A stretch of 64,000 bases of DNA from Deltaproteobacteria bacterium (lineage in GTDB: Bacteria > Desulfobacterota > GWC2-55-46): positions 62,001 to 126,000 of the forward strand of contig JADLDY010000001.1 in the NCBI GenBank assembly GCA_020846435.1, written 5' to 3'. Shown one piece after another: positions 2,706 through 46,322 of this stretch. Positions within the stretch are counted from its first letter, which is position 1. Each line of letters opens with the position of its first letter. The position numbers were made by a program, and so were the translations under genes. The notes below the pieces were generated by a model, which had not been told where the DNA came from, ran no database searches, and saw nothing but the letters and a program-made list of their open reading frames with translations.

Positions 2706-4586
2706 ATGAATCAGCTATATAAGAACATAGCCATGTGGCTCATAATCATAGCCACAGTAGTGCTGATGTTTAACCTTATAAGCTACAAGCAGCCGTCCTC
2801 CGACAAGGTCATTTTCAGCGATTTCATACAGCAGGTCGAGTCCGGCAACGTCGCCGAGGTCACAATACAGGGCAGCGACATACTTGGCAAATACAAGGAC
2901 GGCAAGCCTTTTCAGACCTTCTCGCCCCAGTACCCCGACCTCATAGGTAAGCTTCGTGACAGCGGCGTCAAGATAGCCGTCGAGCCGGTCGTTGACAGCC
3001 CGTCCTGGGGCACGATATTCGTCTCCTGGTTCCCGATGATACTTCTCATAGGCGTCTGGATATTTTTCATGCGCCAGATGCAGAGCGGCGGCGGCAAGGC
3101 CATGAGCTTCGGCAAATCCAGGGCCAGGCTCCTGAACGAGAGCCAGCACAGGGTCACCTTCAAGGACGTCGCTGGCATCGAAGAGGCCAAGGAAGAGGTC
3201 GAGGAGATAATCGACTTCCTCAAAGACCCGAAGAAGTTCACCCGCCTCGGCGGCCGCATACCAAAGGGAGTCCTCCTTGTAGGTCCTCCGGGAACGGGCA
3301 AGACCCTTCTCGCGAAAGCCATAGCGGGAGAGGCCGGAGTGCCGTTCTTCACCATATCCGGCTCTGATTTCGTCGAGATGTTCGTCGGAGTTGGCGCCTC
3401 AAGGGTAAGAGACCTTTTCGTGCAGGGCAAGAAGAACGCCCCGTGCATAATATTCATTGACGAGATAGACGCGGTCGGACGCCACAGGGGAGCGGGCCTT
3501 GGCGGAGGCCACGACGAGAGGGAGCAGACTTTGAACCAGCTTCTCGTCGAGATGGACGGGTTTGAGTCGAACGAGGGCGTCATAATAGTCGCGGCCACCA
3601 ACAGGCCAGACGTTCTTGACCCGGCGCTCCTTCGCCCCGGCAGGTTCGACAGGAACGTGGTCGTGCCCAAGCCCGACATAAAGGGCAGGGCCGAGATACT
3701 CAAAGTCCACACCTCAAAGACGCCGATGTCCCCGGACGTTGACATAGACATTATAGCGAGGGGCACGCCGGGCTTCTCCGGCGCTGACCTCGCCAACCTC
3801 GTCAACGAGGCGGCTCTCCTTGCCGCGAGGCGCGGCAAGGACAAGCTCGAGAAGGTCGAGTTTGACGAAGCCAAGGACAAGCTCCTCATGGGTTCCGAGC
3901 GCAGGTCCATGATAATAAGCGACGCCGAAAAGAAGATTACCGCCTATCATGAGGCAGGGCACACGCTGGTGGCCAGGCTCATTCCCGGGACCGACCCTAT
4001 TCACAAGGTCTCGATCATCCCGAGGGGCATGGCTCTGGGTCTCACGCAGCAGCTGCCGATAGACGAGAGGCACACTTACAGCAGGGAGTATCTCCTGAGC
4101 AACATCTCCGTCCTCATGGGCGGCAGGGCCGCCGAGGAGATAGTCCTTCATCACATGACCACGGGAGCTGGCAACGACATCGAGCGGGCTACCGAGCTCG
4201 CCCGCAAGATGGTCTGCGAGTGGGGCATGAGCGATAAATTGGGCCCCCTTTCCTTCGGCAAGAAAGAAGAGCACATCTTCCTCGGCAAGGACATGGGCCA
4301 GAGGAGGGACTTCAGCGAGGATACCGCCGAGGAGATAGACACCGAGATAAAGAAGATCGTGATGGACAACTACTCAAGGGCGCGCCAGCTCGTTGAGTCC
4401 AATATAAGCGCTCTCCACAGGCTCGCGAAGGCCCTCCTTGAAAAAGAGGCGCTCGACGGGGCCGAGATAGAAAGGCTTATCCGCATGGACGACGGCGGCC
4501 CTTCTGACACGCCTGAGCCGCCTGATGCCAGACCCGAGTCCATCAACCCGGACGACGCGGCTTCTCTTGGAGTCGCGGTCAAGTAA
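2706..4586 (+). CDS. ftsH: ATP-dependent zinc metalloprotease FtsH
   Basis: Membrane-anchored AAA+ protease that degrades misassembled membrane proteins and short-lived regulators. A first membrane helix lies at residues ~9-25 and a second at ~104-122, bracketing a periplasmic domain. Walker A GPPGTGKT is at 193-200, Walker B IIFIDEID near 248-255, the SRH with ATNRPD near 297-302, and the zinc site HEAGH at 415-419. A 626-residue length is normal. ATG is preceded by ACAGGAGCATAG. A G+C-rich hairpin follows the gene. The 127-bp upstream gap includes a weak TTGTAA/CAGAAT pair with 17-bp spacing (2628-2656), so it may start its own transcript. Confidence 0.98.
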
Positions 4587-4613
4587 CAAGGCCCCTCTTT
4601 ATTCCGATTTCAT

Positions 4614-4647
4614 GCCGGCCGCTTGTGCGGCCGGCTTTGTCCTTTTA
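4614..4647 (+). terminator. Rho-independent-like terminator after ftsH
   Basis: A perfect 9-bp stem GCCGGCCGC/GCGGCCGGC with a TTGT loop is followed by TTTGTCCTTTT. The T tract is interrupted, so termination may be partial and read-through into folP is possible. Confidence 0.7.
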
Positions 4648-4686
4648 TGACTTTATAATCCACTTTAAACAGGGGCGGATCTTCTT

Positions 4687-5892
4687 TTGAGCTCACCCGT
4701 CAGATGCCTTGAGATTGCTTCGATCGAGACCTCCCGCGCCGAGATGGACAGGATCGGCGTGGACCCCTCGGGCGCGGCCATCATGGCCCCGAAGCAGTTC
4801 CACTACAACCTCAAGCTCGAAGGGTTGAAGCCCGCGCAGGCGAACATCCTGAAGCAGGACATGCTCTCCATTGGCGGGGAAGCGGCCGTGGCAAGGGGGG
4901 CGGCCTCGTGCTCTGTCTCTTCTTCCGGCGCGATTGTCTCCGGCACCCTCAGGCAGTTCGAAGTCCTCATCGAAAAGTTGAAGGGCCAGTCCCTGGGGCT
5001 CTCCGGCATATCCGATGCCATGCGGGCGGCTATCGACAACAGGGGCCGCTCGACCTATGAATTGAAGGGCGCTGGCAGGTCTTTTACGATCGGCCCGAGG
5101 CCGCTGATAATGGGCATATTGAACGTCACTCCGGATTCGTTCTCGGACGGAGGCCGTTTCCTTGACCCGGCTGAAGCCGTTGAAAGGGCTCTTGAGATGG
5201 CATCAGATGGCGCTGACTGGATAGACGTGGGCGGAGAGTCCACGAGGCCCGGGGCTCAAGAGGTCCCGGCTGATGAAGAGATAAGACGCGTAGTCCCGGT
5301 CATAGAGTCGCTCTCGAAGCACGGGCTTACCGTCTCGATAGACACCATGAAGGCGTCTGTCGCAGAGTCCGCCATAGGCGCCGGCGCGGCCATAGTCAAC
5401 GACGTGTCGGCCCTCTCGGCGGATGAGCGCATGGCTTCTGTCGTGGCAGGCTCAGGCGTTCCTGTTATACTCATGCACATGAGGGGGACGCCCGGGACCA
5501 TGCAACTTGATACAACTTATGCTGACCTCATGTCAGAAGTTTACGGCTACCTGCATTCGCGAGTCGAGTTCGCCGCCTCGCAAGGCATTGACCCTGAAAG
5601 AATAATAGTCGACCCTGGCCTCGGCTTCGGCAAATCAGTCGAGGGCAACTTCGAGATACTCTCGAGGCTGCGCGAGTTCAAATCTCTGGGGAGGCCGGTT
5701 CTCGCCGGGCCGTCGAGAAAGTCATTCATAGGCAGGACGACAGGCGCTGCCGCTCCCGGAGACAGGCTTGCCGGTACGATAGCGGCCTGCGCGCTGGCCG
5801 TCGCAAACGGCGCGGCCATCCTCAGAGTGCACGACGTGAAAGAAGCCCGCATGGCGGCCCTCGTCGCCGCCGCGGTTGCTGAAAAGTCTTGA
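4687..5892 (+). CDS. folP: Dihydropteroate synthase, long form
   Basis: Condenses 6-hydroxymethyl-dihydropterin pyrophosphate with p-aminobenzoate in folate synthesis. The catalytic TIM barrel starts near residue 135, with NVTPDSFSDGG (~146-156), the GGESTRPGA loop, VDPGLGFGKS and AGPSRKSFIG near the C-terminus. About 130 extra residues precede the barrel, making 401 residues against ~270-290 for the E. coli type; I do not recognise the extension with certainty. The start is TTG with an upstream AGGGGCGGA; no in-frame ATG lies between it and residue 20. The downstream cdaA ORF overlaps or abuts its stop. Confidence 0.93.
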   Translation: MSSPVRCLEIASIETSRAEMDRIGVDPSGAAIMAPKQFHYNLKLEGLKPAQANILKQDMLSIGGEAAVARGAASCSVSSSGAIVSGTLRQFEVLIEKLKGQSLGLSGISDAMRAAIDNRGRSTYELKGAGRSFTIGPRPLIMGILNVTPDSFSDGGRFLDPAEAVERALEMASDGADWIDVGGESTRPGAQEVPADEEIRRVVPVIESLSKHGLTVSIDTMKASVAESAIGAGAAIVNDVSALSADERMASVVAGSGVPVILMHMRGTPGTMQLDTTYADLMSEVYGYLHSRVEFAASQGIDPERIIVDPGLGFGKSVEGNFEILSRLREFKSLGRPVLAGPSRKSFIGRTTGAAAPGDRLAGTIAACALAVANGAAILRVHDVKEARMAALVAAAVAEKS

Positions 5893-5893
5893 T

Positions 5894-6694
5894 ATGCTGG
5901 AGAGTCTTTTAGGGATGAACACGATAATAACGGTCCTTGATATAGCCATAGTCGCCCTTGTGCTCTACTGGTTCATGCTGATGTTCAAGGGCTCGCGCGC
6001 CGAGAGGATGATCTGGGGCCTCGGCATAATAGTGATGGTCTATTTCGTCTCACAGAGGTTCGAGCTCCTGACGCTCCACTGGATACTCTCGAACTTCCTG
6101 AGCTCGATCGTCGTCTTCATCATCGTCGTCTTCCAGCAGGACATCAGGAGGGCGCTCGTGCAGATGGGCAAGCCTTTCAGCACAAGGGACACGATGACCT
6201 CGGGCGGCGCGCTAGACGAGATACTGAGGGCTGTTTCATACATGTCCAAGAAAAAGACAGGCGCGCTCATAGTCCTGGAGCGTTCAATCGACCTGGGCGA
6301 CTTCCTCGAAGACCAGCTCGGGGTCGAGCTTGACGCGAAGGTCTCCAAGGAGCTCCTTCTTTCCGTCTTCAATTCCGCCTCGCCGATACACGACGGCGCG
6401 GTCGTCGTCAGGAGGGGCAGGGTCTTCAAGGCAGGGTGTATACTCCCGCTCTCTGAAAAGGAGCTTTCCAAGTCCATGGGCACGAGGCACAGGGCCGCCA
6501 TCGGACTGGCCGAAGAGACCGACGCCGCGATAATCGTCGTCTCCGAGGAGACGGGAGGCATTACGCTCGCGGTCGAGGACGGCCTTACGGCCGACATCGG
6601 CATTGAGAAGCTCACTTCCGACCTGAAGCAGCTCTTCGCTTACAGAGGCTACCCGAGGAAGGAAATACTGGAGCGCGGGGCCTCTAACAGATGA
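5894..6694 (+). CDS. cdaA: Diadenylate cyclase CdaA
   Basis: Makes c-di-AMP from two ATP at the membrane. Three predicted helices lie within the first ~75 residues. A DisA_N domain follows, containing the signature HDGAVVVRRG (DGA motif) and GTRHRAAIG (RHR motif), both needed for catalysis. The ATG at 5894 lies 1 bp after the folP stop; an in-frame TTG at 5876 would add six residues and overlap folP. I prefer the ATG. The order cdaA-cdaR-glmM is the widely conserved c-di-AMP module linking this messenger to cell-wall precursor synthesis. The stop overlaps cdaR by ATGA. Confidence 0.96.
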   Translation: MLESLLGMNTIITVLDIAIVALVLYWFMLMFKGSRAERMIWGLGIIVMVYFVSQRFELLTLHWILSNFLSSIVVFIIVVFQQDIRRALVQMGKPFSTRDTMTSGGALDEILRAVSYMSKKKTGALIVLERSIDLGDFLEDQLGVELDAKVSKELLLSVFNSASPIHDGAVVVRRGRVFKAGCILPLSEKELSKSMGTRHRAAIGLAEETDAAIIVVSEETGGITLAVEDGLTADIGIEKLTSDLKQLFAYRGYPRKEILERGASNR

Positions 6695-7341
6695 GGAATT
6701 TTCTCGCAACCAATCTGAGGCTCAAGGTAATGGCGCTCGCGTTCGCGATAGCGCTCTGGTTCTTCGTCGCCGGGCAGTCGAAGACGGAAGTCGGCGTGCT
6801 GGTGCCGCTTAGCCTCAAGGGCGTGCCCAGGGACATGGTAATGACGAGCATGCCTCCCGGCGACATAGAGGTGAGGGTAACGGGGCCGAGGCTCTTCATG
6901 GCCAACCTCTCGCCAGCGCAGATATCTGCCGAGCTTGACATGAGCGGCGGACTTGAAGGGCTCAACGCCTATAAGATACAGTCGACAGACATAACGACGC
7001 CCATGGGCATAGACGTATTGAGGTTCCGTCCCAATTCGATAGAGGTGAGGCTCGAGAAGCTCTCTAAGACCGAGCTGCCGGTGCGGGTCAGGGTCGTGGG
7101 CAGGCCGGCGCAAGGCTACAGGGTCGCGGAAGTGCAAGTCGTCCCGAAGACGGTCACGGCCATTGCGACGAAAAGGGAATTGAAAGATATCGGAGCTGTT
7201 TTCACGAAGCCGCTGGATGTTTCCGGCAGGGACTCGTCAAAGAGCATGTCGGTTGAACTTGACACGGCAGGCGGCGCGTTGAGGGGTCTCAGTTCCGGCA
7301 AGGTAGATGTCAAGGTAATCATCAGAAGGGAGAGGCATTGA
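6691..7341 (+). CDS. cdaR: CdaR/YbbR-domain regulator of diadenylate cyclase
   Basis: 216-residue protein with one N-terminal membrane helix (residues ~11-27, [15 protein letters not shown]) and two YbbR-type beta-rich domains after it, placed outside the cytoplasmic membrane. In Firmicutes CdaR binds CdaA and modulates its activity. The family usually has two to four YbbR repeats; two is at the short end. The start ATG overlaps the cdaA stop and the end overlaps the glmM start, so the three are very probably translationally coupled. Confidence 0.9.
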
Positions 7342-32256: not shown

Positions 32257-32967
32257 ATGGCAAACGAAGCGGTCTTCTCGATAAAGGGGCTTACCAAGGT
32301 CTACCGGATGGGGGAGGTGAGCGTGCACGCCCTGCGCGGGGTAGACCTCGACCTCTACGACGGCGAGCTCGTCGTATTCCTCGGCCCTTCGGGCAGCGGG
32401 AAGTCAACCCTCCTCAACATCATGGGCGGGCTCGATACCGCTACCGAAGGCCATGTCTCGTACAGGGGAAAAGACCTCACGAGGGCGGGTGAGGCCGAGC
32501 TCACCGGGTACCGGCGCTTCCATGTCGGCTTCGTATTCCAGTTCTATAACCTCATACCAAGCCTTACAGCCAAAGAGAACGTCGCCGTGGTGACCGAGAT
32601 AGCCTCGAAACCGATGCGCCCGGAGGACGCCCTCTCCATCGTCGGCCTCGGCGGCCGCCTCGATCATTTCCCCGCACAGCTCTCGGGCGGCGAGCAGCAG
32701 AGGGTCGCCATAGCCAGAGCGATATCCAAAAACCCTGATGTGCTCTTGTGCGATGAGCCCACAGGCGCGCTCGATTCCGAAACAGGCATCGTCGTCCTCG
32801 AGGCGCTCGAGAGGATAAACCGTGAGCTTCACACGACTACCGCCATAATAACCCACAACTCTGACATAGCGGCGATGGCCGACAGGGTCGTGCATCTGAG
32901 CAACGGCCAGATAACCGAGGTCGCGACCAACTCCGTGAAAAAGCCGCCCAGGGAGATACACTGGTAG
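32257..32967 (+). CDS. ABC exporter ATPase, LolD/MacB type
   Basis: 236-residue ATP-binding subunit. Walker [10 protein letters not shown] is at residues 43-51, the Q-loop in [10 protein letters not shown], the signature [15 protein letters not shown], Walker [13 protein letters not shown] and the switch His in IITHNSD. The family drives FtsX-type permeases that extrude substrates from the membrane or periplasm rather than import solutes. It is followed after one base by its permease and then by an adaptor, together a DevABC-like tripartite exporter. Confidence 0.95.
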
Positions 32968-32968
32968 A

Positions 32969-35332
32969 GTGAAGGCTATCGACATAAAACTCCTGCGAGA
33001 CCTCCTCAGGATGAAGGGGCAGGTCCTGGCCATCGTCCTCATCATAGTGAGCGGCGTCTCTACCTATGTCATGTTCCTGAGCACGATGGACTCCCTTACG
33101 CTCACGAGGGACGCCTTTTACAGGGAGTACGGCTTTGCCGACGCGTTCGTCTCTTTAAAGAGAGCCCCTGAGTCCATTAAAAAGAGGATCGAGGAGATCC
33201 CAGGTGTTCAGGCGGTCGAGACGAGGGTCGTTGCCGAGGTCAAGCTCAAGGTCAGGGACTTCGGAGAGCCTGTGACCGGCAGGCTCGTCTCCCTCCCTGA
33301 GCGCGGCGAGCCCCGCATCAACAGGCTCTATTTGAGGAACGGACGGCTCCCTGACCCGTCAAGGGAGGATGAGGCCGTAGTAAGCGAGGCGTTCGCAGAG
33401 GCGCACGGACTCGAGCCCGGGGACGAGGCAGGGGCCGTGATAAACGGCAGGTGGCGGCGTTTGAGGATAGTCGGCGTCGCGCTCTCCCCGGAGTTCGTCA
33501 TGCAGGTGAGGCCCGGCGCCCTCTCCCCTGACTACAAGCGTTACGCCATAGTCTGGATGGGAAGGAAGGCTATCGCCACTGCGTACGGCATGGACGGCGC
33601 GTTCAACGACGCGGTCATCGAGATGACGCAGGGCGCTCGCGCGCATGAGCTCATGGCGAGGCTCGACGGCCTCCTTGCCAGGTACGGCGGGCTCGGCTCT
33701 TATCTGCGCGAAGACCAGCTGTCGCACCGCTTTTTGAACGAGGAGTTCAAGCAGTTGGAGAGGAGCGCCACGATATTCCCCGCCATATTCATTGGCGTGG
33801 CGGCCTTCCTCCTCAATGTCGTCATAACAAGGATCGTGAGCACGCAGAGGGACCAGCTTGCCGCTCTCAAGGCGTTCGGCTATTCTAACGCCGCTGTCGG
33901 GGCCCACTATGTCAAGATGGTCATGTTGATAGTCGCCGTCGGCGTAATAGGCGGAGTCCTCCTCGGCTGGTGGTTCGGCGGCAAGCTCGCGGGTATCTAC
34001 ATGGTCTTTTACAGGTTCCCGTACCTCAAGATGACTCTCGGGCCGGGCGTCGTCATATCGGTCGCGCTTATTACGGGCCTGTCAGCCCTTGCAGGCGCCA
34101 TCTTCGCCGTGAGGCGGGCGGCTGTCCTCGCGCCAGCTGAGGCTTTGAGGCCTGAGCCTCCGGCGAGGTACTCCCGGAGCCTGATCGAGAGGTTCTCTCT
34201 TGGCAAAGCCCTGTCCCAGCCGACGAGGATGATAATAAGGAGCCTCGAGAGAAGGCCTCTGAAGTCGCTGCTTTCAATCACAGGCATCTCGATGTCGTGC
34301 GCCATACTGATCTCAGGCATGTTCTCCGGTGACTCGATAGACTACCTGATAGATGTACAGTTCAAGCGTTCGCAGAAAGAGGACATGTCAGTCACGTTCA
34401 TAGAGCCTTCCTCGTGGAAGGCCCTCTACGAACTCCAGGGCATGGAGGGGGTCAGGAAGTCTGAGCCCTTGCGCGCCGTTCCTGTCAGGCTCCGGAACGC
34501 GAACAGCAGTTACAGGACTTCGATACAGGGCATAGACCCGTCGAACACGATGCAAAAGCTCCTCGATTCCTCGCTGGAGCCTGTCGATATACCTCCCAGG
34601 GGCATTGTGCTGACCGATTACCTGGGAGAGATGCTCGGCGTCAGGCCCGGGGACATGCTTACCGTCGAGGTGCTCGAGGGCGCGCGCCCGGTCGCGCTGT
34701 TACCGGTCGCAGGCCTCGTGAAGCAGTACATAGGCATCTCCGGGTACATGGACATAGACAGCCTTAACAGGCTCACCGGCGAGGGGAGGGCCATAACCGG
34801 CTCTCTCCTTGCCATTGACCGGGAGCGCATCGGCGCGATATACAAGAAGATGATCGACATGCCTGCGGTTGCCGGGACAGCGGTGAGGGCCGACGAGATA
34901 AAGAACTTTTACGACACGCAGGCTGAGGTGCTCCTTTTTTTTACCTTCATAGCGACCCTCCTCGCCTCGACGATAGCCTTCGGCGTGATATACAACAGCG
35001 CGCGCATTGCCCTGTCCGAAAGGAACAGGGAGCTGGCGAGCCTTCGCGTTCTGGGTTATACCAAGGCCGAGATATCGTACATATTCCTCGGCGAGCTGGC
35101 AGTGCTGACCCTCGCGTCTCTGCCGCTGGGTTTCGTGCTAGGGCACAGCATAAGCGCCTATATCGCCGGGGCCTTGAGCTCTGATCTGTACCGCGTACCG
35201 CTTGTCATAAAGACCGACACCTACGCCTTTGCCGCGGCGGTTGTCCTTGCCTCGGCCGTTGTGTCCGGGCTTATCGTACGTTACAGGCTCGGCAGGCTTG
35301 ACCTTGTCGAGGCCTTGAAAGCGAGGGAGTGA
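32969..35332 (+). CDS. ABC exporter permease with two FtsX domains
   Basis: 787-residue membrane protein starting at GTG one base after the ATPase stop. A first helix lies at ~17-38, then a large extracytoplasmic (MacB-PCD-like) domain, an FtsX domain with helices near 270-395 (IGVAAFLLNVVITRIVSTQRDQ trimmed to its core), another helix near 430-450, a second extracytoplasmic domain, and a second FtsX domain with helices near 650-780. It ends LVEALKARE, typical of the family. The tandem FtsX layout means one polypeptide may supply both halves of the pore. The substrate is unknown. Confidence 0.92.
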   Translation: MKAIDIKLLRDLLRMKGQVLAIVLIIVSGVSTYVMFLSTMDSLTLTRDAFYREYGFADAFVSLKRAPESIKKRIEEIPGVQAVETRVVAEVKLKVRDFGEPVTGRLVSLPERGEPRINRLYLRNGRLPDPSREDEAVVSEAFAEAHGLEPGDEAGAVINGRWRRLRIVGVALSPEFVMQVRPGALSPDYKRYAIVWMGRKAIATAYGMDGAFNDAVIEMTQGARAHELMARLDGLLARYGGLGSYLREDQLSHRFLNEEFKQLERSATIFPAIFIGVAAFLLNVVITRIVSTQRDQLAALKAFGYSNAAVGAHYVKMVMLIVAVGVIGGVLLGWWFGGKLAGIYMVFYRFPYLKMTLGPGVVISVALITGLSALAGAIFAVRRAAVLAPAEALRPEPPARYSRSLIERFSLGKALSQPTRMIIRSLERRPLKSLLSITGISMSCAILISGMFSGDSIDYLIDVQFKRSQKEDMSVTFIEPSSWKALYELQGMEGVRKSEPLRAVPVRLRNANSSYRTSIQGIDPSNTMQKLLDSSLEPVDIPPRGIVLTDYLGEMLGVRPGDMLTVEVLEGARPVALLPVAGLVKQYIGISGYMDIDSLNRLTGEGRAITGSLLAIDRERIGAIYKKMIDMPAVAGTAVRADEIKNFYDTQAEVLLFFTFIATLLASTIAFGVIYNSARIALSERNRELASLRVLGYTKAEISYIFLGELAVLTLASLPLGFVLGHSISAYIAGALSSDLYRVPLVIKTDTYAFAAAVVLASAVVSGLIVRYRLGRLDLVEALKARE

Positions 35333-35335
35333 AAG

Positions 35336-36547
35336 ATGCCTCTTAAAAGAAAAATATGGATTGCCGTTGCCGCGCTGGCGGTACTGGCCGCGCTTGTCTA
35401 CGGGTTCGTGCCAGAGGCTGTGGAGGTCGAGACAGCGAAGGTCGAGACCGGGCCGATGATGGTGACGGTCGACGAGGAGGGAAAGACGCTCGTCAAGGAT
35501 AGGTTCGTGCTCTCGGTCCCTGTCGCCGGTTACATGAGAAGGCTCTCTTTTGACGTGGGTGACGCCGTCTCAAAAGGGCAGGCGATGATCGAGCTTGAGC
35601 CGCTTCGCTCCGTGGAGCTCGACCCGAGGTCAAGGGCCGCGGCCGAGGCAGGTGTTGCCGCCGCCGCAGCCACAGTCAGCGCCTCAGAGCAGAACGAGGC
35701 GGCCAGGAGGTCAGAGGCCTGGCTCGCGAAAGAAGATCTCACAAGGGCAAAGGCCCTTTTTGACGGCGGACATATCTCAAAGAGCGCCTTTGACAGGGCG
35801 CAGAGCGCGGCCAGTCAGACGGAAGCCGCGTGGGGCGCGGCCTCTTCCAGCGTAAAGACAGCCCGCGCCGAGCTCGCGAGGGCCAGAGCCGCCCTCGGCT
35901 ACTCTCTGGCAGAAGGCATTGGTGAGAGCCGTGTAAAGGCGGTCTCCGTGCGCTCCCCTGTAAAGGGGCGCATATTGAAGCTCCACAAAGAGAGCGAAGG
36001 GACCGTTGCCGCCGGAGAGCCTTTGGCCGATGTCGGGGACACGGCTTCCCTTGAGGTGCGCGCGGAGGTCCTCTCCTCGGACGCTGTCAGCATAAAGCCT
36101 CTCTCTCCTGTTTTCTTTGAGCGATGGGGAGGGTCTACAAGGCTCGAAGGCAAGGTAAGGTCTGTCGAGCCCGCGGCGTTCACGAAGGTCTCGAGCCTCG
36201 GGGTCGAGGAGCAACGCGTCGTCGTCATATCCGACATAACGTCGGCCCCCGATGACTGGCAGAAGCTTGGCGACGGGTACAGGGTCGAGGCGAGGTTCGT
36301 CGTCTGGGAGTCTCAAAAGGCCTTGAAGGTCCCGGCGAGCGCGGTCTTCAGGACAGGGGACACTCATGCGGTATTCGCAGTCAAGGACGGCCGAGCTCAA
36401 AAGAGGCTGGTAAGGATCGGCCAGATGAACGGGATCGCCGCTGAGGTGACTGAAGGCCTTTCAGAGGGCGAGGAGGTCGTTATTCATCCTGACGACGCGC
36501 TCAAGGATGGCGCGAGGGTCAAAAAGGCGGCCCCTTCCGCCAGGTAA
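35336..36547 (+). CDS. HlyD-type periplasmic adaptor (MFP)
   Basis: 403-residue membrane fusion protein linking the ABC permease to the outer membrane. One N-terminal helix (~6-24) anchors it. The first half of the barrel-sandwich domain is near 55-90, a coiled-coil hairpin rich in Ala, Glu and Arg spans ~95-195, the second half follows (VRSPVKGRILKLHKESEGTV core), then a beta-barrel and membrane-proximal domain. It lies 3 bp after the permease. No TolC-type outer-membrane factor is encoded nearby. Confidence 0.92.
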   Translation: MPLKRKIWIAVAALAVLAALVYGFVPEAVEVETAKVETGPMMVTVDEEGKTLVKDRFVLSVPVAGYMRRLSFDVGDAVSKGQAMIELEPLRSVELDPRSRAAAEAGVAAAAATVSASEQNEAARRSEAWLAKEDLTRAKALFDGGHISKSAFDRAQSAASQTEAAWGAASSSVKTARAELARARAALGYSLAEGIGESRVKAVSVRSPVKGRILKLHKESEGTVAAGEPLADVGDTASLEVRAEVLSSDAVSIKPLSPVFFERWGGSTRLEGKVRSVEPAAFTKVSSLGVEEQRVVVISDITSAPDDWQKLGDGYRVEARFVVWESQKALKVPASAVFRTGDTHAVFAVKDGRAQKRLVRIGQMNGIAAEVTEGLSEGEEVVIHPDDALKDGARVKKAAPSAR

Positions 36548-36994: not shown

Positions 36995-37960
36995 ATGTCA
37001 GAAGCAGGGGTAGTGGCAGCCGGCAGGCAGGAAGAATTACTTGCCGTAAAACCATTTGAACAGCAACGCGTGCAGTTCGAGGGCTGGCTGGTCTTCGTTG
37101 CCATACTGGTGACGCTCGCGTGCGCGTACGAGTCCCTGGCGCAGACCTTCGTGCCTGCGGCAAGCATCCTCTCGATGCTTCACACGTACGGGATAATGGA
37201 GGCCTACCCCGTGGTCTACGAGCCGGGCAAGGGCATATGGCGGCTCATGGGCTGGACCGGCTCCGGCATGATGGTCCTCATGATGGCGTATACCATCAGG
37301 AAGAGGCTCGGGCACAAGTCTTCCCTGGGCTCCATGCGCGTGTGGCTCAACTTCCACATGCTCATGGGCATCGTAGGGCCGATACTCATAACCTTCCATA
37401 CCACTTTCAAGTTCGGCGGGCTCATAGGCACGAGCTACTGGGCCATGCTCGCGACCGTCATGTTCGGAGTCGTCGGCAGGTACATCTACATCCAGATACC
37501 CAGGGGCATCAACGGCGCCGAGCTTTCCATGAAGGACATAGACTCCATAGTCGGCGCCATGGAAAAGCGCATAGAGAGCCAGCTCGAGAAAAAGGGAGTC
37601 GACCAGAAGAAGATCCTCTCTCTCCTGAACGGCGTGAACGACGCCGCCGTGCACGACGGGAACGGCTTTGTGGTCCTTCTACACCTCATAGCGAACGACC
37701 TGAAGAACAGGTTCAGGACCTGGAAGTTGAAGCGCGCCATCGTGAGGCAGTTCGGCTTTGACAGCTGGACGGCGGAAAAGACGATCGCCCTGGTCAAGAA
37801 GAAGGCCGCGCTCGTGAGGAAGAAGAGCCTCCTGTCAACGACCCACAGGATGCTCAAATACTGGCACGTCGTCCACATACCGCTTGCCATAGTGATGTTC
37901 TCTATCATGTTCATACATATCATCGTATACTTCGTGTTCAGCCCTTCTGCCGGGTATTAA
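36995..37960 (+). CDS. Five-helix b-type cytochrome of the electron-transfer operon
   Basis: 321-residue integral membrane protein with helices near residues 30-50, 84-100, 119-140, 148-168 and 291-318. Helix 3 carries His-x13-His (HMLMGIVGPILITFH) and helix 5 also His-x13-His (HIPLAIVMFSIMFIH), the pattern expected for two bis-His b haems bridging helix pairs. A charged ~110-residue segment lies between helices 4 and 5. It resembles cytochrome b561/ferric-reductase-like membrane domains, though I cannot name a precise family. It is followed after 5 bp by the giant multihaem cytochrome, so a quinol-to-cytochrome electron donor role is inferred. Confidence 0.82.
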   Translation: MSEAGVVAAGRQEELLAVKPFEQQRVQFEGWLVFVAILVTLACAYESLAQTFVPAASILSMLHTYGIMEAYPVVYEPGKGIWRLMGWTGSGMMVLMMAYTIRKRLGHKSSLGSMRVWLNFHMLMGIVGPILITFHTTFKFGGLIGTSYWAMLATVMFGVVGRYIYIQIPRGINGAELSMKDIDSIVGAMEKRIESQLEKKGVDQKKILSLLNGVNDAAVHDGNGFVVLLHLIANDLKNRFRTWKLKRAIVRQFGFDSWTAEKTIALVKKKAALVRKKSLLSTTHRMLKYWHVVHIPLAIVMFSIMFIHIIVYFVFSPSAGY

Positions 37961-37965
37961 AGAAA

Positions 37966-40900
37966 ATGGAGCCGTTATCCGTGTCCAAGACTGACATGGC
38001 GCCTTTGCGGCGCGCTTTTCATACGACCTTCCTTGCCGCCATGCTCGTCCTTCTTTTAAGCGTCCTGCTGCTGCCTGCCGCCTCATTCGCGGCCGACGGC
38101 AAGGAAGGCGTGCACACGCTGATCTCCCCCGGCCCTCTTGCCTCTGCCCACGCCAAATACGACGGCATACTGAGCTGCACCAAGTGCCACAGGCTTGGCG
38201 GCGGCGTCCCTGACAGGCTGTGCCTGGACTGCCACGACAAGCTCGATGAGCGCATAAAGGCCGGAAGGGGCCTGCACGCCAAGTACAAGGACCCGTGCGC
38301 CAAGTGCCACAGTGACCACAAGGGCCGCTCTTACAAGATGATAATCCTTGAAGAGAAGAAGTTCGACCACGATAAGACCGAGTACAAGCTCGTCGACAAG
38401 CACCAGAAGGTCGAGTGCGCCAAGTGCCACAAGAAGCAGGGCGAGTTCATTGGCGCGCCCAAGACCTGCGTGGGCTGCCACAAGGACGAGCATAAAAAGC
38501 AGCTCGACCAGGACTGCTCAAAGTGCCACAACATCAAGGACTGGAAGGACATAACCTGGTTCGACCACGACAGGGACTCGGTCTACGCCCTTACCTGGAA
38601 GCACAAGGAAGTGAAATGCGCCAAGTGCCACGCGCAGGGCAAGTGGAAGCCGATAGAGCACAAGAAGTGCGACGCCTGCCACAAGGACGTGCATAAGGCC
38701 CAGTTCAAGGGCCAGCTCTGCGACGCCTGCCACACTACAAAGGACTGGAAGGCCGACAAGTTCAAGCATGTCCCGCCCGAGTACAAGGGCTACGCTCTCG
38801 ACGGCAAGCACCTTACGACCCCGTGCGACAAGTGCCATGTCAAGGGCGCGTACAAGCCCATAAAGTCCGCTACCTGCGACGGCCCCGGGTGCCACCCCAA
38901 CCCGCACAAGAAGCAGTTCGAGGGCAAAAAGTGCGACGCCTGCCACGTGACCGCCGGCTGGGGCAAGGACGCGTTCGACCACGGCGACCCCGCGTACAAG
39001 GGCTACAAGCTCGAGGGCAAGCACCAGAAGGTCAAATGCGAGGAGTGCCATCAGAAGGGCGTGTACAAGCCCCTGAAGTACAAGCTCTGCGAGGACTGCC
39101 ACAAGGACGAGCACAAGGGCCAGTTCAAGGCTCAAAAATGCGATTCGTGCCACACGGTCAAGGACTGGAAAGAGGAGACCTTCGACCACAACGGCCCCAG
39201 ATACTCGGGCTACAAGCTCGACGGCAAGCACTTGAAGACCCCTTGCGACAAGTGCCACGTCAAGGGCGAGTACAAGCCCATAAAGTACAAGGCTTGCATC
39301 GACTGCCACAAGGACGAGCATAAGGATCAGTTCAAGGGCAGGACGTGCGAGTCGTGCCATGACACGAAGGACTGGAAGAAGACCTCCTTTGACCATAACT
39401 CGCCTTCGTACAAAGGCTACAAGCTCGATGGCAAGCACCTTAAGACGCCTTGCGACAAGTGCCACATAAACGCGAAGTGGAGGCCTCTGCCGGACGGGTG
39501 CAATAACTGCCACGAGAAGGACGATACGCACAAGCAGGAGCTCGGCAGCCTCTGCGGCAAGTGCCATAACACTACCGACTGGAAAAAATACACGCTCAAC
39601 CACAACACCCAGGCGAAGTTCCCGCTCATCGGCAAGCACAAGGACGTGAAATGCGAGAAGTGCCACCCCGAGAGCAAGAAGCCCAAGAGGTACAGGACCG
39701 GCGAGCTCAAGTGCGTGGACTGCCACAAGGACGTGCACAAGGGCAAGTTCAAGGAAGAGTGCTCGAGCTGCCATAACCAGTCCGACTGGGTACCCAAGAG
39801 GTACGACCACGGCAGCAAGACCGGCTATCAGCTTTCAGGCGCGCACGAGGGCACGAGCTGCGGGAGCTGCCATAAGACGGCCGACTATAAGATGACCAAG
39901 AAGAGCTGCTTCCAGTGCCATAACGACCCGCACGACAACCAGTTCGGCAAGGTCGAGTGCTCTGAGTGCCACACGCAGGCTTCGTGGAGCCCGATGCAGT
40001 TCAGGCACACCGGCACCCGCTACCCTCTGACCGGAGCGCACAGGGCTGCTCTTTGCGGCGAGTGCCACAAGGGCGGCAACTTCAGGAACACGGCAACCGT
40101 CTGCTCCAACTGCCACATGGACAAATACGCGGCCGCCCCAAGCCACGTCGCCAAGAGCTATGGGACCAACTGCTCGGCGTGCCACATCGAGACGATGACC
40201 GCCTGGGGCTTCAAGCACCCGGGAGGCACTGACTGCGCCTCGTGCCACCTTGCAGAGAGGCCGGCGACCCATACCTCCAACACGGTCAGGTTCCCGGCGA
40301 CCTGCGCCACCTGCCACAAGTACCCGGCGTGGACTCCGTCTACGTTCAACCATCTGGCCAAGACCGACTGCTCGGCCTGCCACGGCCCGCAGAAGCCCTC
40401 GACCCATACGGCCAACGCGGTGAAGTACCCGGTGACCTGCGAGACGTGCCACAAGTATCCGGCGTGGACGCCGAGCATATTCACCCACGCTTCAACAACC
40501 AATTGCTCGGCCTGCCATAGCCCGCAGAAGCCGTCGACCCATACGGCCAACAGCCAGAAGTACCCGAACACCTGCGAGCAGTGCCACAGGCACCCGTCAT
40601 GGACGCCTTCGACCTTCAACCACACGGCGGCGACAAACTGCATAGCCTGCCACGTGTCTCAGAAGCCCGCGACCCATACGGCCAACGCGGTGAAGTACCC
40701 GTCGACCTGCGAGAGCTGCCACAGGTACCCGGCATGGGCGACGGTCTCGCATGTCGTCACGACGACTAACTGCTCGAGCTGCCACCTCTCCAAGAGGCCG
40801 GCGACCCACACGGCCAATACGACGAAGTACCCGACTACATGCGAGCAGTGCCATAAATACACTACTCCGTGGACGACGGCCACGCATGTCGTAACTACGG

Positions 40901-42555
40901 CGAACTGCTCGAACTGCCACCTCACGCAGAGACCGGCGACCCACACGGCCAATACGACGAAGTACCCTGTGACCTGCCAGAGCTGCCACAGGTACACCGC
41001 TCCGTGGACGACGGTCACGCATGTCGCCGCCACGGTGAACTGCTCGAACTGTCATCTCACGCAGAGGCCGACTACCCACACCGGGAACACGGCGAAGTAC
41101 CCGGCGACCTGCGAGAGCTGCCACAGCACCTCTGTGTGGACCCCGTCGACCTTCACGCACCCGACGACGGCCGTCTGCTCGAACTGTCACCTCACGCAGA
41201 GGCCTGCGACGCACACCGCGAACCCGACAGCGTACCCGACTACCTGCTCGAATTGCCACAGGTACCCTGTATGGGCGACGATTTCGCATATCGTCACGAC
41301 GACTAACTGCTCGAGCTGCCATCTTTCGAAGAGGCCGGCGACCCACACGGCCAATACGACGAAGTACCCGGTGACATGCGAGCTGTGCCATAAATACACT
41401 ACTCCGTGGACGACGGCCACACACATGGTCACGACGGCTAACTGCTCGAACTGCCACCTCACGCAGAGGCCGGCGACGCACACGGCCAATACGACGAAGT
41501 ACCCGACGACCTGCCAGAGCTGCCACAGCACTTCTGTCTGGACCCCGTCGACCTTCACGCACCCGACGACGGCCGTCTGCTCGAACTGCCACCTTACGCA
41601 GCGCCCGACGACCCACACGGCCAACCCGGCCGCGTACCCGACGGTCTGCTCGAACTGCCATACCTATCCCGTGTGGGCGACAGTGAAGTACTCGCATAGC
41701 GGCGCCACGAACTGCTCGACCTGCCATCTGGCGAAGAGGCCGGCGACGCATACGGCCAACCCGACAGCGTACCCGACGACCTGCTCGAGCTGCCATACGT
41801 ACCCGGTCTGGGCGACAGTGAAGTACTCGCATACCGGAGTCACGACGAACTGCTCGAATTGCCATCTTGCGAAGAGGCCGGTGACCCACACGGCCAGCAC
41901 GCAAAAGTTCCCGACGACCTGCGAGCAGTGCCACAAGTACCCTTCGTGGACGCCGAGCACACTGGTCCACACAACGACCATGACCTGCTCGACCTGCCAT
42001 CTTTCGCAGAGGCCGACGACGCACACGGCGAACCCGACAGCGTACCCGACGACCTGTTCGAGCTGTCATAATTACCCGACCTGGGCCGCCATCTCGTACA
42101 CTCACACGGCCTCGACGACAAATTGCCAGTCATGCCATCTTTCGAGGAGGCCGGCTTCGCACTTGTCGAACCCGACAAAGTACACGACCGTTTGCGAGGC
42201 CTGCCACAAGTACGCGAGCGGCTGGACGTTCGTACATTCGACGAGCACCGCGATAAGCTGCAACTCGTGCCATTCGACGGATTACCCGGCCCCGCACCTT
42301 GCGTATAACTCGAGGTTCGGCACGGTTTGCCAGAACTGCCATACATACCCCGTGTGGCCTACTACCAGGTTCACGCACACGTTCAGCGTCTTCCCCGTGA
42401 ACCATGAGGGCTTCACGAGGTGCTCTGACTGCCATCCGGCCAAGGCTTACGGCAACAAGGGCGGCTGCATTGAGTGTCATACCGCCAGGGGCGAGAAGGT
42501 GCACAAGGTAAGCACTAACGCCGGGTGTTTGAGCTGCCACCCGAGGGGAAACTGA
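37966..42555 (+). CDS. Giant secreted multihaem c-type cytochrome, 65 candidate haem sites
   Basis: 1529 residues. A signal peptide spans ~1-42 (LLLSVLLLPAASFA, cleavage before ADG). I count 64 CXXCH motifs plus one CX4CH (C304-DGPG-C309-H310). Sites 1-30 (to residue ~750) are Lys-rich three-haem units of ~70 residues with motifs such as CHKDEHKGQFK, DWKEETFDH and GYKLDGKHLKTP. Sites 31-62 are Thr/Pro-rich two-haem units of ~45 residues (CSNCHLTQRPATHTANTTKYP, then CxxCHxYPxWTPSTFTH). Free His recur in every unit, fitting bis-His ligation. Sites 63-65 form a short cap. No catalytic domain is visible, so an electron wire is the likely role. It sits between a b-cytochrome gene and a beta-barrel gene. 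Confidence 0.95.
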   Translation: MEPLSVSKTDMAPLRRAFHTTFLAAMLVLLLSVLLLPAASFAADGKEGVHTLISPGPLASAHAKYDGILSCTKCHRLGGGVPDRLCLDCHDKLDERIKAGRGLHAKYKDPCAKCHSDHKGRSYKMIILEEKKFDHDKTEYKLVDKHQKVECAKCHKKQGEFIGAPKTCVGCHKDEHKKQLDQDCSKCHNIKDWKDITWFDHDRDSVYALTWKHKEVKCAKCHAQGKWKPIEHKKCDACHKDVHKAQFKGQLCDACHTTKDWKADKFKHVPPEYKGYALDGKHLTTPCDKCHVKGAYKPIKSATCDGPGCHPNPHKKQFEGKKCDACHVTAGWGKDAFDHGDPAYKGYKLEGKHQKVKCEECHQKGVYKPLKYKLCEDCHKDEHKGQFKAQKCDSCHTVKDWKEETFDHNGPRYSGYKLDGKHLKTPCDKCHVKGEYKPIKYKACIDCHKDEHKDQFKGRTCESCHDTKDWKKTSFDHNSPSYKGYKLDGKHLKTPCDKCHINAKWRPLPDGCNNCHEKDDTHKQELGSLCGKCHNTTDWKKYTLNHNTQAKFPLIGKHKDVKCEKCHPESKKPKRYRTGELKCVDCHKDVHKGKFKEECSSCHNQSDWVPKRYDHGSKTGYQLSGAHEGTSCGSCHKTADYKMTKKSCFQCHNDPHDNQFGKVECSECHTQASWSPMQFRHTGTRYPLTGAHRAALCGECHKGGNFRNTATVCSNCHMDKYAAAPSHVAKSYGTNCSACHIETMTAWGFKHPGGTDCASCHLAERPATHTSNTVRFPATCATCHKYPAWTPSTFNHLAKTDCSACHGPQKPSTHTANAVKYPVTCETCHKYPAWTPSIFTHASTTNCSACHSPQKPSTHTANSQKYPNTCEQCHRHPSWTPSTFNHTAATNCIACHVSQKPATHTANAVKYPSTCESCHRYPAWATVSHVVTTTNCSSCHLSKRPATHTANTTKYPTTCEQCHKYTTPWTTATHVVTTANCSNCHLTQRPATHTANTTKYPVTCQSCHRYTAPWTTVTHVAATVNCSNCHLTQRPTTHTGNTAKYPATCESCHSTSVWTPSTFTHPTTAVCSNCHLTQRPATHTANPTAYPTTCSNCHRYPVWATISHIVTTTNCSSCHLSKRPATHTANTTKYPVTCELCHKYTTPWTTATHMVTTANCSNCHLTQRPATHTANTTKYPTTCQSCHSTSVWTPSTFTHPTTAVCSNCHLTQRPTTHTANPAAYPTVCSNCHTYPVWATVKYSHSGATNCSTCHLAKRPATHTANPTAYPTTCSSCHTYPVWATVKYSHTGVTTNCSNCHLAKRPVTHTASTQKFPTTCEQCHKYPSWTPSTLVHTTTMTCSTCHLSQRPTTHTANPTAYPTTCSSCHNYPTWAAISYTHTASTTNCQSCHLSRRPASHLSNPTKYTTVCEACHKYASGWTFVHSTSTAISCNSCHSTDYPAPHLAYNSRFGTVCQNCHTYPVWPTTRFTHTFSVFPVNHEGFTRCSDCHPAKAYGNKGGCIECHTARGEKVHKVSTNAGCLSCHPRGN
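40234..42330 (+). repeat. In-frame ~135-bp tandem repeat array encoding haem pairs
   Basis: The 3' part of the multihaem cytochrome gene is a run of degenerate units averaging 45 codons, each with two CXXCH sites. Nucleotide identity is high: CGGCGACCCACACGGCCAAT and ACGACGAAGTACCC recur. A block starting at 40771 recurs at 41308 (offset 537 bp) over roughly 220 bp with few changes, which shows segmental duplication on top of the basic repeat. Confidence 0.9.
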
Positions 42556-42562
42556 CAAGTAG

Positions 42563-43798
42563 ATGAAAAACAAGCTGAGGTTCCTTACCTTACTGGCCAT
42601 GGCCCTGCCGGTTGTTACTGCGGGGGCTTCACAAGCCGCTCAACTGGGCGGCGTGATATCATTCGAGGACTATTATTCAGGGGATACGGCCTCCGGCAGC
42701 AGGCACGCCATGACCGGCAGGCTCAAGCTCGATATCACGAAGATAGGCCCTTCCCAGAAGATAGGTTTTCACTTCGACGCAAGGCAGAGGTTCGACCTCT
42801 CCGGTGAGATCTCCACTTCGAGCAAGGAGGGGAGGATCGACCAGGCGCAGCTCGAATACGCCGGTACGAGCCTTTACCTCTCCATAGGAAGGCTCTGGCC
42901 CAAGGATATGCCGATAGAGGTGGTCGACGGCGTCAACGCCGTCTACCAGGGGCAGGGTTCCAAGACAGGGTTCGGCGTTTACGCGGGGTTGCGCCCCAAC
43001 CCGTACAGCCAGTCAACCACCGCTGATTTTACCTCGGCCGGCCTTTACCTTTCGCACGCGGGCGAGAAGCTCTCGGCAGGAGCGGCCTTCGTGCACAACG
43101 GGTACAAGGGAGACACAGACAGGCAGTACTTCTACGGATACGGCACATGGATGCCCCGTCCTTCGCTCTTCGCCCTGGGCAATATCACGGCGGACCTGAG
43201 CCCTTCAGGAGAGGTGGACCTCACGAACCTCATCGCCGAGCTTACATGGAGGCCCGACGAAGTAAAGAGCTTCACGCTGGGCTATAACCAGTTCAGGGCC
43301 TTCAAGTACTACGCCTCCACCCTCTTCGCGGACATAGACGACAGCCGCCAGGACGGCTTTTACCTGGGCGCGACTTACAGGCTTAACCCCCAGTACATGG
43401 TCTACGGCAGGGTCGAGACGCAAAAGAGGTTCTTCCCGGCGACCGAGACGGGCCAGAACAACATGTTGAGTTACAGGGCTGGCGTGAGCGGCGATAACGT
43501 CCTCAATACCGGGGTCTTCATGAACCTGAGCGCTTCTGTCACCGATAGCTACGGCTCAGAGTACACGGCTTACAGCTTTGACATGAGCAGGATGCTTGGC
43601 GAATCGGTCCAGCTCATGTTCAACGGCGCGTATACCCAGAACGTATACGGCGCGTCTTCGAGCGGAGGGATCGTCAGCTTCGGCGGGTCGGCCTTCTACA
43701 TGGCGAGGAGGTGGAACCTGTCTTTGAGCGTCGACACGGAGCGTGGGACGGATTACACGACCAACAGGATCCTTACGAGGGTGAGCTTCAACCTCTAA
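42563..43798 (+). CDS. Putative outer-membrane beta-barrel (porin-like) protein
   Basis: 411-residue exported protein: signal peptide ~1-26 (ALPVVTAGASQA, cleavage near AQ), then a succession of ~9-11-residue amphipathic strands with alternating hydrophobic residues, Gly/Tyr/Asp turns and aromatic girdle residues (FGVYAGLRPN, YFYGYGTWMP, GFYLGATYRL, YMVYGRVETQ). It ends in RVSFNL, an alternating final strand. About 16 or more strands can be drawn. No family is recognised with certainty. It follows the giant cytochrome by 7 bp, as barrel sheaths do in porin-cytochrome conduits, and a terminator closes the operon. Confidence 0.82.
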   Translation: MKNKLRFLTLLAMALPVVTAGASQAAQLGGVISFEDYYSGDTASGSRHAMTGRLKLDITKIGPSQKIGFHFDARQRFDLSGEISTSSKEGRIDQAQLEYAGTSLYLSIGRLWPKDMPIEVVDGVNAVYQGQGSKTGFGVYAGLRPNPYSQSTTADFTSAGLYLSHAGEKLSAGAAFVHNGYKGDTDRQYFYGYGTWMPRPSLFALGNITADLSPSGEVDLTNLIAELTWRPDEVKSFTLGYNQFRAFKYYASTLFADIDDSRQDGFYLGATYRLNPQYMVYGRVETQKRFFPATETGQNNMLSYRAGVSGDNVLNTGVFMNLSASVTDSYGSEYTAYSFDMSRMLGESVQLMFNGAYTQNVYGASSSGGIVSFGGSAFYMARRWNLSLSVDTERGTDYTTNRILTRVSFNL

Positions 43799-45023: not shown

Positions 45024-46322
45024 CTACGCGGTGCCGAACTTCTTCTCGACCTTCACGCCTATGCCGCGCAGGAAGTCGTTCGGAAGCTCTCCTCCTGCGA
45101 AGATGTAGACGAAGTCGTTGGGCACTTTGGTGAGTTTCCCGTCCGCTTCTATCTGCGCGTCCTTTTCCCTTATCTCTTTGAGGTTCGAGTTAAGGAGGAG
45201 CGAGAGCTTCTTTTCGGAGAGCGCCTTGTCCAGACGGTCCTTGTTGCCCGGCTTTATCCTTGAGAGAGCGTCTCCCCTGTACGAGAGCGTCACCCTGTTG
45301 CCGCAGGAGGCAAGGGACATGGTCGCTTCCACCGCGCTGTCTCCTCCGCCCACGACGATTATGTCATGGCCCTTGTGCTGCTCAGGGTCGAGGAGGCTGT
45401 AGCTCACCTTCGTGAGCTCTTCGCCAGGCACCCCGAGCTTTCTTGGCGTGCCCCTCCTGCCTATGGCGAGGACGATGGTCCTGGTGAGGTACTCGCCCTT
45501 TGTCGTAGTGACCTTGAACTCGCCGGGGAGCTCGGTGAGGGCGGTCATCTTCTCGTTAGTGTTTACTTTAAGACCGGACTTCTGGATGACGCCTGAAAAG
45601 AGCTCAAGGAGGGATTCTTTCGTCGTCTCCCTGACCTTTATCTTCCCGTGGAGCGGCAGGTCCATCGGCTGGGTCATTACTATCTTGTGCCTGGGGTAGT
45701 GGAGGATAGCTCCTCCGATGTCGTTCTGTTCTATGGTTATGAACTTGAGCCCGGCCTTTTGGGCGGCCAGGGAAGCGCTTATGCCTGCCGGTCCCGCGCC
45801 GACTATGAGGACGTCGTACGCGTCGCTTGATTTCTTCTTGTCCTTGATGAAGCAGGTGATGTACTCGACGGCCTGACGCCCCTGGGTGACGGCGTTACGC
45901 ACCAAGCCCATGCCGCCGAGCTCTCCGGCTATGAAGATGCCCTTTACGTTGGTCTCGAAGTTGGGGGAGACGTAAGGTATGTCAACGCCCCTTTTCTCGT
46001 TGCCGAAGACGAGCGTTATGGCCCCGACCGGGCAGGCGGCCGCGCACGCGCCGTGGCCCACGCAGTGGGTCGCGTTGATGAGCGCGCCCCTTCCGGAGAT
46101 GAGGCCGAGGACGTCGTGCTGCGGGCAGGCTTTGACGCAGGCGGTCGAGCCGATGCACAGCGCGGGGTCTATCTTCGGGTGCAGAGTCGTCGGCTCTTCG
46201 TTCATGCCGAACTCGACGGCCTTCTTGAGCTTGGCCTTCGTCTTGCTGGACTTCTTCCCGTAGTAATAGATGTATATGATTATGGCGAGAGCTACTATGA
46301 GCGTTGAGAGCAGGCTTGTCAG
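45024..46322 (-). CDS. Membrane-anchored Fe-S/FAD NAD(P)-dependent oxidoreductase
   Basis: 432 residues from a proposed CTG at 46322. Residues ~3-21 form a membrane helix (SLLSTLIVALAIIIYIYYYG). A ferredoxin-like domain follows, with CIGSTACVKACP and CVGHGACAAACP; in each, the usual second Cys of the cluster is replaced (Ser, His). The rest is a thioredoxin-reductase-like two-dinucleotide fold: VGAGPAGISASLAAQKAG (FAD) and VVGGGDSAVEATMSL (NAD(P)H). No CxxC redox pair is seen in the reductase part. The ATG at 46205 would drop the membrane helix; a GGAGG lies 8 bases before the CTG, so the longer form is preferred. Substrate unknown. Confidence 0.85.
   Translation of the reverse strand: MTSLLSTLIVALAIIIYIYYYGKKSSKTKAKLKKAVEFGMNEEPTTLHPKIDPALCIGSTACVKACPQHDVLGLISGRGALINATHCVGHGACAAACPVGAITLVFGNEKRGVDIPYVSPNFETNVKGIFIAGELGGMGLVRNAVTQGRQAVEYITCFIKDKKKSSDAYDVLIVGAGPAGISASLAAQKAGLKFITIEQNDIGGAILHYPRHKIVMTQPMDLPLHGKIKVRETTKESLLELFSGVIQKSGLKVNTNEKMTALTELPGEFKVTTTKGEYLTRTIVLAIGRRGTPRKLGVPGEELTKVSYSLLDPEQHKGHDIIVVGGGDSAVEATMSLASCGNRVTLSYRGDALSRIKPGNKDRLDKALSEKKLSLLLNSNLKEIREKDAQIEADGKLTKVPNDFVYIFAGGELPNDFLRGIGVKVEKKFGTA

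Follow-up and report, generated by a model that had tools for sequence, protein, structure and literature searches.

The window, a stretch of 64,000 nucleotides, contains three closely spaced genes encoding an inner-membrane protein (IMP), a giant multihaem cytochrome c (MHC) and an outer-membrane beta-barrel-like protein (OMP), followed on the strand opposite to this cassette by the gene for an oxidoreductase with iron-sulfur and FAD sites, here called the FeS-FAD protein (Table 1). The arrangement resembles PCC3, a putative porin-cytochrome conduit that was proposed on bioinformatic grounds (He et al., 2017, PMC5566968) and has also been described in Gallionellaceae (PMC10734462). The first-pass annotation of this DNA had considered the cytochrome on its own. 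Its view of the cytochrome itself stands in part, whereas the conserved IMP, OMP and FeS-FAD neighbours and the resemblance to PCC3 had been missed.

Table 1. Features of the cytochrome locus, with positions counted from the first letter of the window.
Feature	Position	Strand	Description	Basis
Inner-membrane protein (IMP)	36995..37960	+	321 aa, ferric-reductase-like/cytochrome b-like	Motifs, hydropathy, co-occurrence
Giant multihaem cytochrome c (MHC)	37966..42555	+	1529 aa, 64 CXXCH + 1 CX4CH	
Probable Sec signal peptide of MHC	37966..38091	+	Residues 1-42, hydrophobic stretch, AxA-like site SFA/AD	Sequence and hydropathy
N-module of MHC	38098..40170	+	Nine Lys-rich haem triads (27 sites) and transition sites; putative counterpart of the periplasmic PCC3-type cytochrome	
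CX4CH (CDGPGCH) of MHC	38875..38895	+	Residue 304; middle haem site of triad 4	
C-module of MHC	40171..42552	+	Thr/Pro-rich 22-23-residue units, ~36 sites; putative counterpart of the extracellular PCC3-type cytochrome	
Outer-membrane beta-barrel-like protein (OMP)	42563..43798	+	411 aa, signal peptide	Co-occurrence; HMM match to Emticicia OMP
Membrane-anchored 2x[4Fe-4S] + FAD/NAD(P) oxidoreductase (FeS-FAD)	45024..46322	-	Conserved partner	Profile matches, neighbourhood

The haem-motif count given at first pass was reproduced by direct counting, and 2,000 shuffles of the MHC residues yielded a mean of 0.9 and a maximum of 5 CXXCH motifs. The 65 sites correspond to one haem per 23.5 aa. As many as 128 of the 130 Cys residues lie within CXXCH and the other two form the CX4CH, leaving none outside haem motifs; the CX4CH site is CXXCH in more distant relatives. 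The statement that the protein carries a signal peptide and no other catalytic domain was likewise upheld: the signal peptide is evident in the sequence, and a Pfam profile search found c7/c3 matches above cut-off and no non-cytochrome domain. Neither a lipobox nor a surface-display signal was seen on sequence inspection. The sites were also said to follow two repeat chemistries. In the N-half they follow each other at 17+17+35 and in the C-half at alternating distances of 22 and 23, and this difference indicates that the two chemistries are real. The halves also differ in composition, with 16.6% Lys and 5.2% Thr in the N-half against 20.4% Thr and 3.9% Lys in the C-half, and the boundary was placed at about haems 27-30, near residue 735. 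Each unit of the C-module consists of a CXXCH and nearly always one further His, and the array ends in a terminal cap (...CLSCHPRGN).

A low-spin c haem of the class found in MHC normally requires a second His. With the motif His residues excluded, MHC was found to have 69 spare His for its 65 sites. N-half triads chiefly show a 0+1+2 pattern of spare His, and almost all C-half units have exactly one. Across 19 relatives and the window protein, the ratio of spare His to haem was 1.00-1.17. The absence of other Cys together with about one spare His per haem, kept across relatives, suggests, indirectly though in quantitative terms, that most sites are probably genuine bis-His haems, with near-complete loading. 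Cytochrome c assembly proteins are encoded in the same genome. The gene does not look like a product of faulty assembly. No exact repeat within it exceeds 50 bp, and even the two most similar 150-bp stretches show 10 differences, making collapse or expansion during assembly unlikely. The concentration of substitutions at third codon positions points the same way. These repeat lengths, the 157-kb contig on which the gene sits and independent intact relatives, including open versions of 1494 aa (63 sites) and 1576 aa (67 sites) in same-genus genomes, rule out an assembly or repeat artefact. In one other genome (G017, L071 6394-9112), a giant cytochrome was observed in two overlapping frames (12 + 26 sites), attributable to a frameshift or a sequencing error.

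The gaps within the cassette are 5 bp between IMP and MHC and 7 bp between MHC and OMP. Of 30 family genomes, 15 have both MHC and OMP, neither of which occurs without the other; IMP is present in those 15 plus one, and the order IMP-MHC-OMP is constant in the family genomes wherever the contig is long enough. Promoter and terminator scans yielded no usable signal above shuffles. The IMP, for which searches of Pfam and NCBIfam returned no match, matches WX3HX13H exactly at two places, residues 117 and 290, which would supply the ligands of two b haems. A simple hydropathy scan showed four clear hydrophobic segments, compared with the five transmembrane helices of PCC3 IMPs. OMP relatives mostly have Phe at the C-terminal end. 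The barrel fold is putative: the AlphaFold model of the OMP was of very low confidence (pLDDT 28.6), and a strand count by amphipathicity gave too noisy a signal for use. A relative of the FeS-FAD gene adjoins most cassettes and was not found beside a few, for example at loci L058 and L065. In the window, the listed start of this open reading frame (46205) is too late; an in-frame hydrophobic helix lies upstream, and the start codon is uncertain. The best family match of the FeS-FAD protein is of the YpdA/thioredoxin-reductase type and falls below cut-off, so that another substrate is possible.

Genes for an ABC transporter ATPase, a 787-aa FtsX permease and an HlyD-like protein occupy positions 32257-36547 (+) directly upstream of the cassette in the window, a run not found at that place in the same-genus relatives L052 and L053. 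Two family genomes carry a second, smaller pair of IMP and cytochrome genes (L073 5528-8483 and L074 4881-7866). The smaller cytochrome has 21 CXXCH and 5 CX4CH motifs, the latter being unusually frequent, and the pair has an adjoining FeS-FAD gene and no OMP gene next to it.

The first-pass suggestion that two haem-wire modules had been fused in MHC gained support from relatives that carry the halves as separate genes. On plasmid pEMTOL02 of Emticicia oligotrophica (EMTOL_RS21090-21110), genes for an IMP, an FeS-FAD protein, a 23-haem cytochrome, a 40-haem cytochrome and an OMP stand in a row. The IMP, FeS-FAD protein and OMP are homologous to those of the window, the OMPs matching by profile with an E value of 5.7e-20, and 23 + 40 haems come close to the 65 of MHC; however, the cytochromes are two separate genes and the Emticicia OMP has an extra N-terminal part. 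Split clusters were also found in three genomes of another family of the same order (f4); seven triads make up the 21 haem sites of their first cytochrome. The FeS-FAD gene belongs to the same run of genes as those for the IMP and the two cytochromes in both the f4 and the Emticicia clusters. Against the first and second cytochromes of split pairs, the N-module scored 316 v 245 bits and 271 v 159 bits, whereas the C-module scored higher against the second than the first (224 v 85 bits and 143 v 83 bits). Because BLAST scores among repetitive Cys/His-rich proteins are partly compositional, the module argument rests on the score difference. The split clusters and the best match of each module thus point to a fusion of two cytochromes.

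Fused relatives are not confined to one family: another occurs in family f51 of the phylum (G090), and a probable further one, truncated where its contig stops, in family f108 of the order (G426). Triads were counted in the window protein and the 13 others with a complete N-part, the only 14 proteins long enough. The N-module was found to have nine triads in 12 of the 14 and ten in 2, as judged by a long gap after every third site through site 27 or 30, while the C-module of the same proteins ranges from about 11 to 40 sites.

Several other proteins were noted at these loci. Three split clusters of the same order encode a protein of ~700 aa whose gene separates those for the FeS-FAD protein and the IMP (L097 9413-11524, L112 5781-7889 and L113 7636-9729), and that of L097 appears ankyrin-repeat-like by eye. 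In G230 (L098 4223-8287), a 26-haem cytochrome runs into ankyrin-like repeats in one frame. L097 also encodes a 29-haem extracellular-type cytochrome (3213-6713) with ~400 residues of repeated non-haem domains before its haem array, and these repeats resemble, by eye, the SPOR domain detected with Pfam in an OMP-like neighbour (L097 613-2730). At L094 1243-2535, not far from the fused cassette in G090, lies the gene for an exported protein of 430 aa that has a single CXXCH close to its N-terminal end (VACTTCHFQHYPALNAFG); it may be a single-haem cytochrome-porin. Plasmid matches in Bradyrhizobium, Methylophaga and Variovorax, where IMP-like genes lie beside a 2Fe-2S protein and a small cytochrome, do not represent this system.

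What might such a fused cytochrome do? The preferred reading, to which a probability of about 0.72 is assigned, is that of a PCC3-like conduit carrying electrons across the envelope, with its periplasmic and extracellular multihaem cytochromes joined in one chain. The two b haems of the IMP would be the point of electron entry or exit, coupled to the quinone pool and/or to the cytoplasmic FeS-FAD oxidoreductase and thereby to NAD(P)H. The nine triads of the N-module would cross the periplasm from the IMP side to the outer membrane, the chain would then pass the OMP barrel, and the C-module, a variable Thr/Pro-rich haem array, would lie at or beyond the cell surface and exchange electrons with minerals, electrodes or partners. 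For MHC itself, we infer haem loading, continuous stacking, barrel passage, surface exposure and electron transfer. An AlphaFold model of residues 427-1025 (repeat-shifted rows) was of very low confidence (pLDDT 36.6), and no stacking could be read from it. MtrA, with ten haems, is quoted as ~100 Å long (PMC5566968), from which 27 to 28 linear sites are estimated to extend ~27 nm, near the width of the periplasm; the C-module may add up to a few tens of nm by the same kind of estimate. The first-pass proposal that the chain could span the periplasm many times over is not favoured, as the fixed nine-triad N-module would roughly match the width of a single periplasm and the variable C-module would continue past it.

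Since the haems are attached in the periplasm and the C-module is expected across the outer membrane, the fused chain poses an assembly problem, and assembly of the barrel around the chain would be one possible route for the haem-loaded C-module. Electron flow could run either way, as export to minerals or electrodes or as uptake such as Fe(II) oxidation. In the same genome, three COX1-family matches exceed the cut-off, whereas no dsrA does and RuBisCO was not found; this pattern would suit a respirer of oxygen or nitrogen oxides and is compatible with either direction.

The locus can also be read as a purely periplasmic haem capacitor or wire, with the 65 haems storing or spreading electrons from the IMP and the OMP being unrelated or a small-molecule porin. 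This reading is unlikely. The lack of a visible lipobox or surface-display signal on MHC, the Lys-rich N-module, similar to periplasmic cytochromes, and the modest size of the OMP (411 aa), perhaps too narrow for a haem protein, would agree with it. However, the OMP gene lies directly 3' of the MHC gene and has an identical distribution among the genomes, the C-module finds its nearest counterparts in the separate second cytochromes of split clusters and is rich in Thr, Ser and Ala as reported for extracellular PCC3 cytochromes (PMC5566968), and the near-fixed length of the N-module contrasts with the variable length of the C-module. Very unlikely, in turn, is an extracellular filament or matrix cytochrome that is nanowire-like, either polymeric or a long monomer, and does not cross a membrane. 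The coupled IMP gene and the periplasmic-type N-module favour a membrane-to-membrane path, and homology to the OmcS, OmcE or OmcZ filaments was rejected, as a PDB sequence search found no match to their chains, although high haem density and variable array length are features that a filament would also have. Repeat-driven decay, by which many CXXCH motifs would be unloaded by-products of tandem duplication, is scarcely credible even though the C-module is a tandem array of 135-bp units whose number changes within the genus. When C-units were aligned, the CXXCH and the spare His were found to be invariant while other positions diverged; the ratio of spare His to haem is near 1 in all relatives, and substitutions in the N-module (0.278 at third codon positions vs 0.08 at positions 1 and 2) follow a purifying pattern.

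A further reading is compatible with the trans-envelope conduit and refines its input: electrons would come from NAD(P)H by way of the FeS-FAD protein and the IMP, as in a split NADPH-oxidase-like export system, and not the quinone pool. The IMP motif pattern has been likened to a ferric reductase/NOX domain (PMC5566968), and the FeS-FAD gene adjoins the cassette at most loci and lies inside the gene run of split clusters; conversely, it is on the opposite strand in the window and was not found beside a few cassettes (for example L058 and L065). NAD(P)H input is accordingly held as tentative, at somewhat less than an even chance. The boldest form of the conduit model is rather doubtful as a whole: a single polypeptide forming an unbroken haem wire that leads from the inner membrane over the periplasm and through the barrel to the outside, in which the number of N-triads serves as a ruler for periplasm width and a split NADPH-oxidase-like pair of FeS-FAD protein and IMP feeds the wire from NAD(P)H.

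In the PCC3, MtrCAB and OetABI conduits, the inner and outer steps fall to different cytochromes, which have to come together. The hand-over between them would disappear in a conserved fused chain, if true. Its near-fixed inner part and free outer part would constitute a natural test of the haem-chain length needed to cross the periplasm, and the chain raises a sharp question of assembly, with haem attachment in the periplasm and half of the chain expected outside. The occurrence of split and fused forms within one order makes a direct comparison possible.

How does the window system compare with known cytochrome systems? A haem chain through an outer-membrane barrel, as proposed here, is shared with MtrCAB, MtoAB and PioAB, but theirs consists of a decahaem MtrA and a larger barrel. 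Membership of MHC in the MtrA/DmsE family was rejected (TIGR03508 score of 106.1 v a cut-off of 192.2 bits; 65 sites vs ten). The ANME/Methanoperedens cytochromes with 86 haems (PMC9012536) and 113 haems (PMC7082337) are likewise very large single chains thought to conduct across the envelope; unlike MHC, they are archaeal, often have S-layer or other domains, lack an outer-membrane barrel and contain more haems. The published 113 haems (PMC7082337) exclude MHC as a record. Thus, the first-pass description of an extreme multihaem cytochrome was justified, whereas its rarity as an isolated curiosity was not, cytochromes with 85, 86 and 113 haems having been published. The PDB sequence search gave only two matches to MHC, both weak, 3oue and 1rwj ("Cytochrome c family"). 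These c7-type triheme proteins are similar to MHC over two stretches and are short chains (82 and 158 residues) built of three-haem domains.

The resemblance to PCC3 involves several components. Two WX3HX13H motifs are reported as the hallmark of PCC3/PCC4 IMPs (PMC5566968), and both are present in the window IMP, whose 321 aa are near the ~300 aa of PCC3 IMPs. The extracellular cytochrome of PCC3 has a median of 34 haems, and up to 85, and is rich in Thr, Ser, Ala and Gly, and the periplasmic cytochrome, encoded by a separate gene, has a median of 21 haems (PMC5566968), the number found in the first cytochrome of the f4 split clusters. MHC similarly has very many haem sites with few residues per haem, and the window combines a Thr/Ser/Ala-rich extracellular-type part and a 21-27-haem periplasmic-type part with an outer-membrane protein. 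There are also differences. PCC3 IMPs are reported to share an SGXXG motif in the fourth helix (PMC5566968), which is retained as SGVVG in the Emticicia IMP and as SGXXG in the same-order split clusters, whereas the window IMP has FGVVG (GVVG at 158). In the window and its relatives, a single gene encodes both the periplasmic-type and the extracellular-type part. Because of FGVVG in place of SGXXG and of cytochromes that are not separate, the window system is not filed as a strict member of PCC3. In addition, the window OMP (411 aa) is smaller than many reported PCC3 porins, the conserved FeS-FAD partner is absent from the main text of PMC5566968, and the PCC3 systems in that paper come from Alpha-, Beta- and Gammaproteobacteria, to which the window lineage does not belong. 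The literature covered, which had preprints and most subscription journals outside its scope, yielded no account of a fusion of this kind or of the cassette in this lineage, and a search by lineage name found nothing. Overall, as judged from sequence, the window system is a conserved, fused variant of the PCC3-like type.
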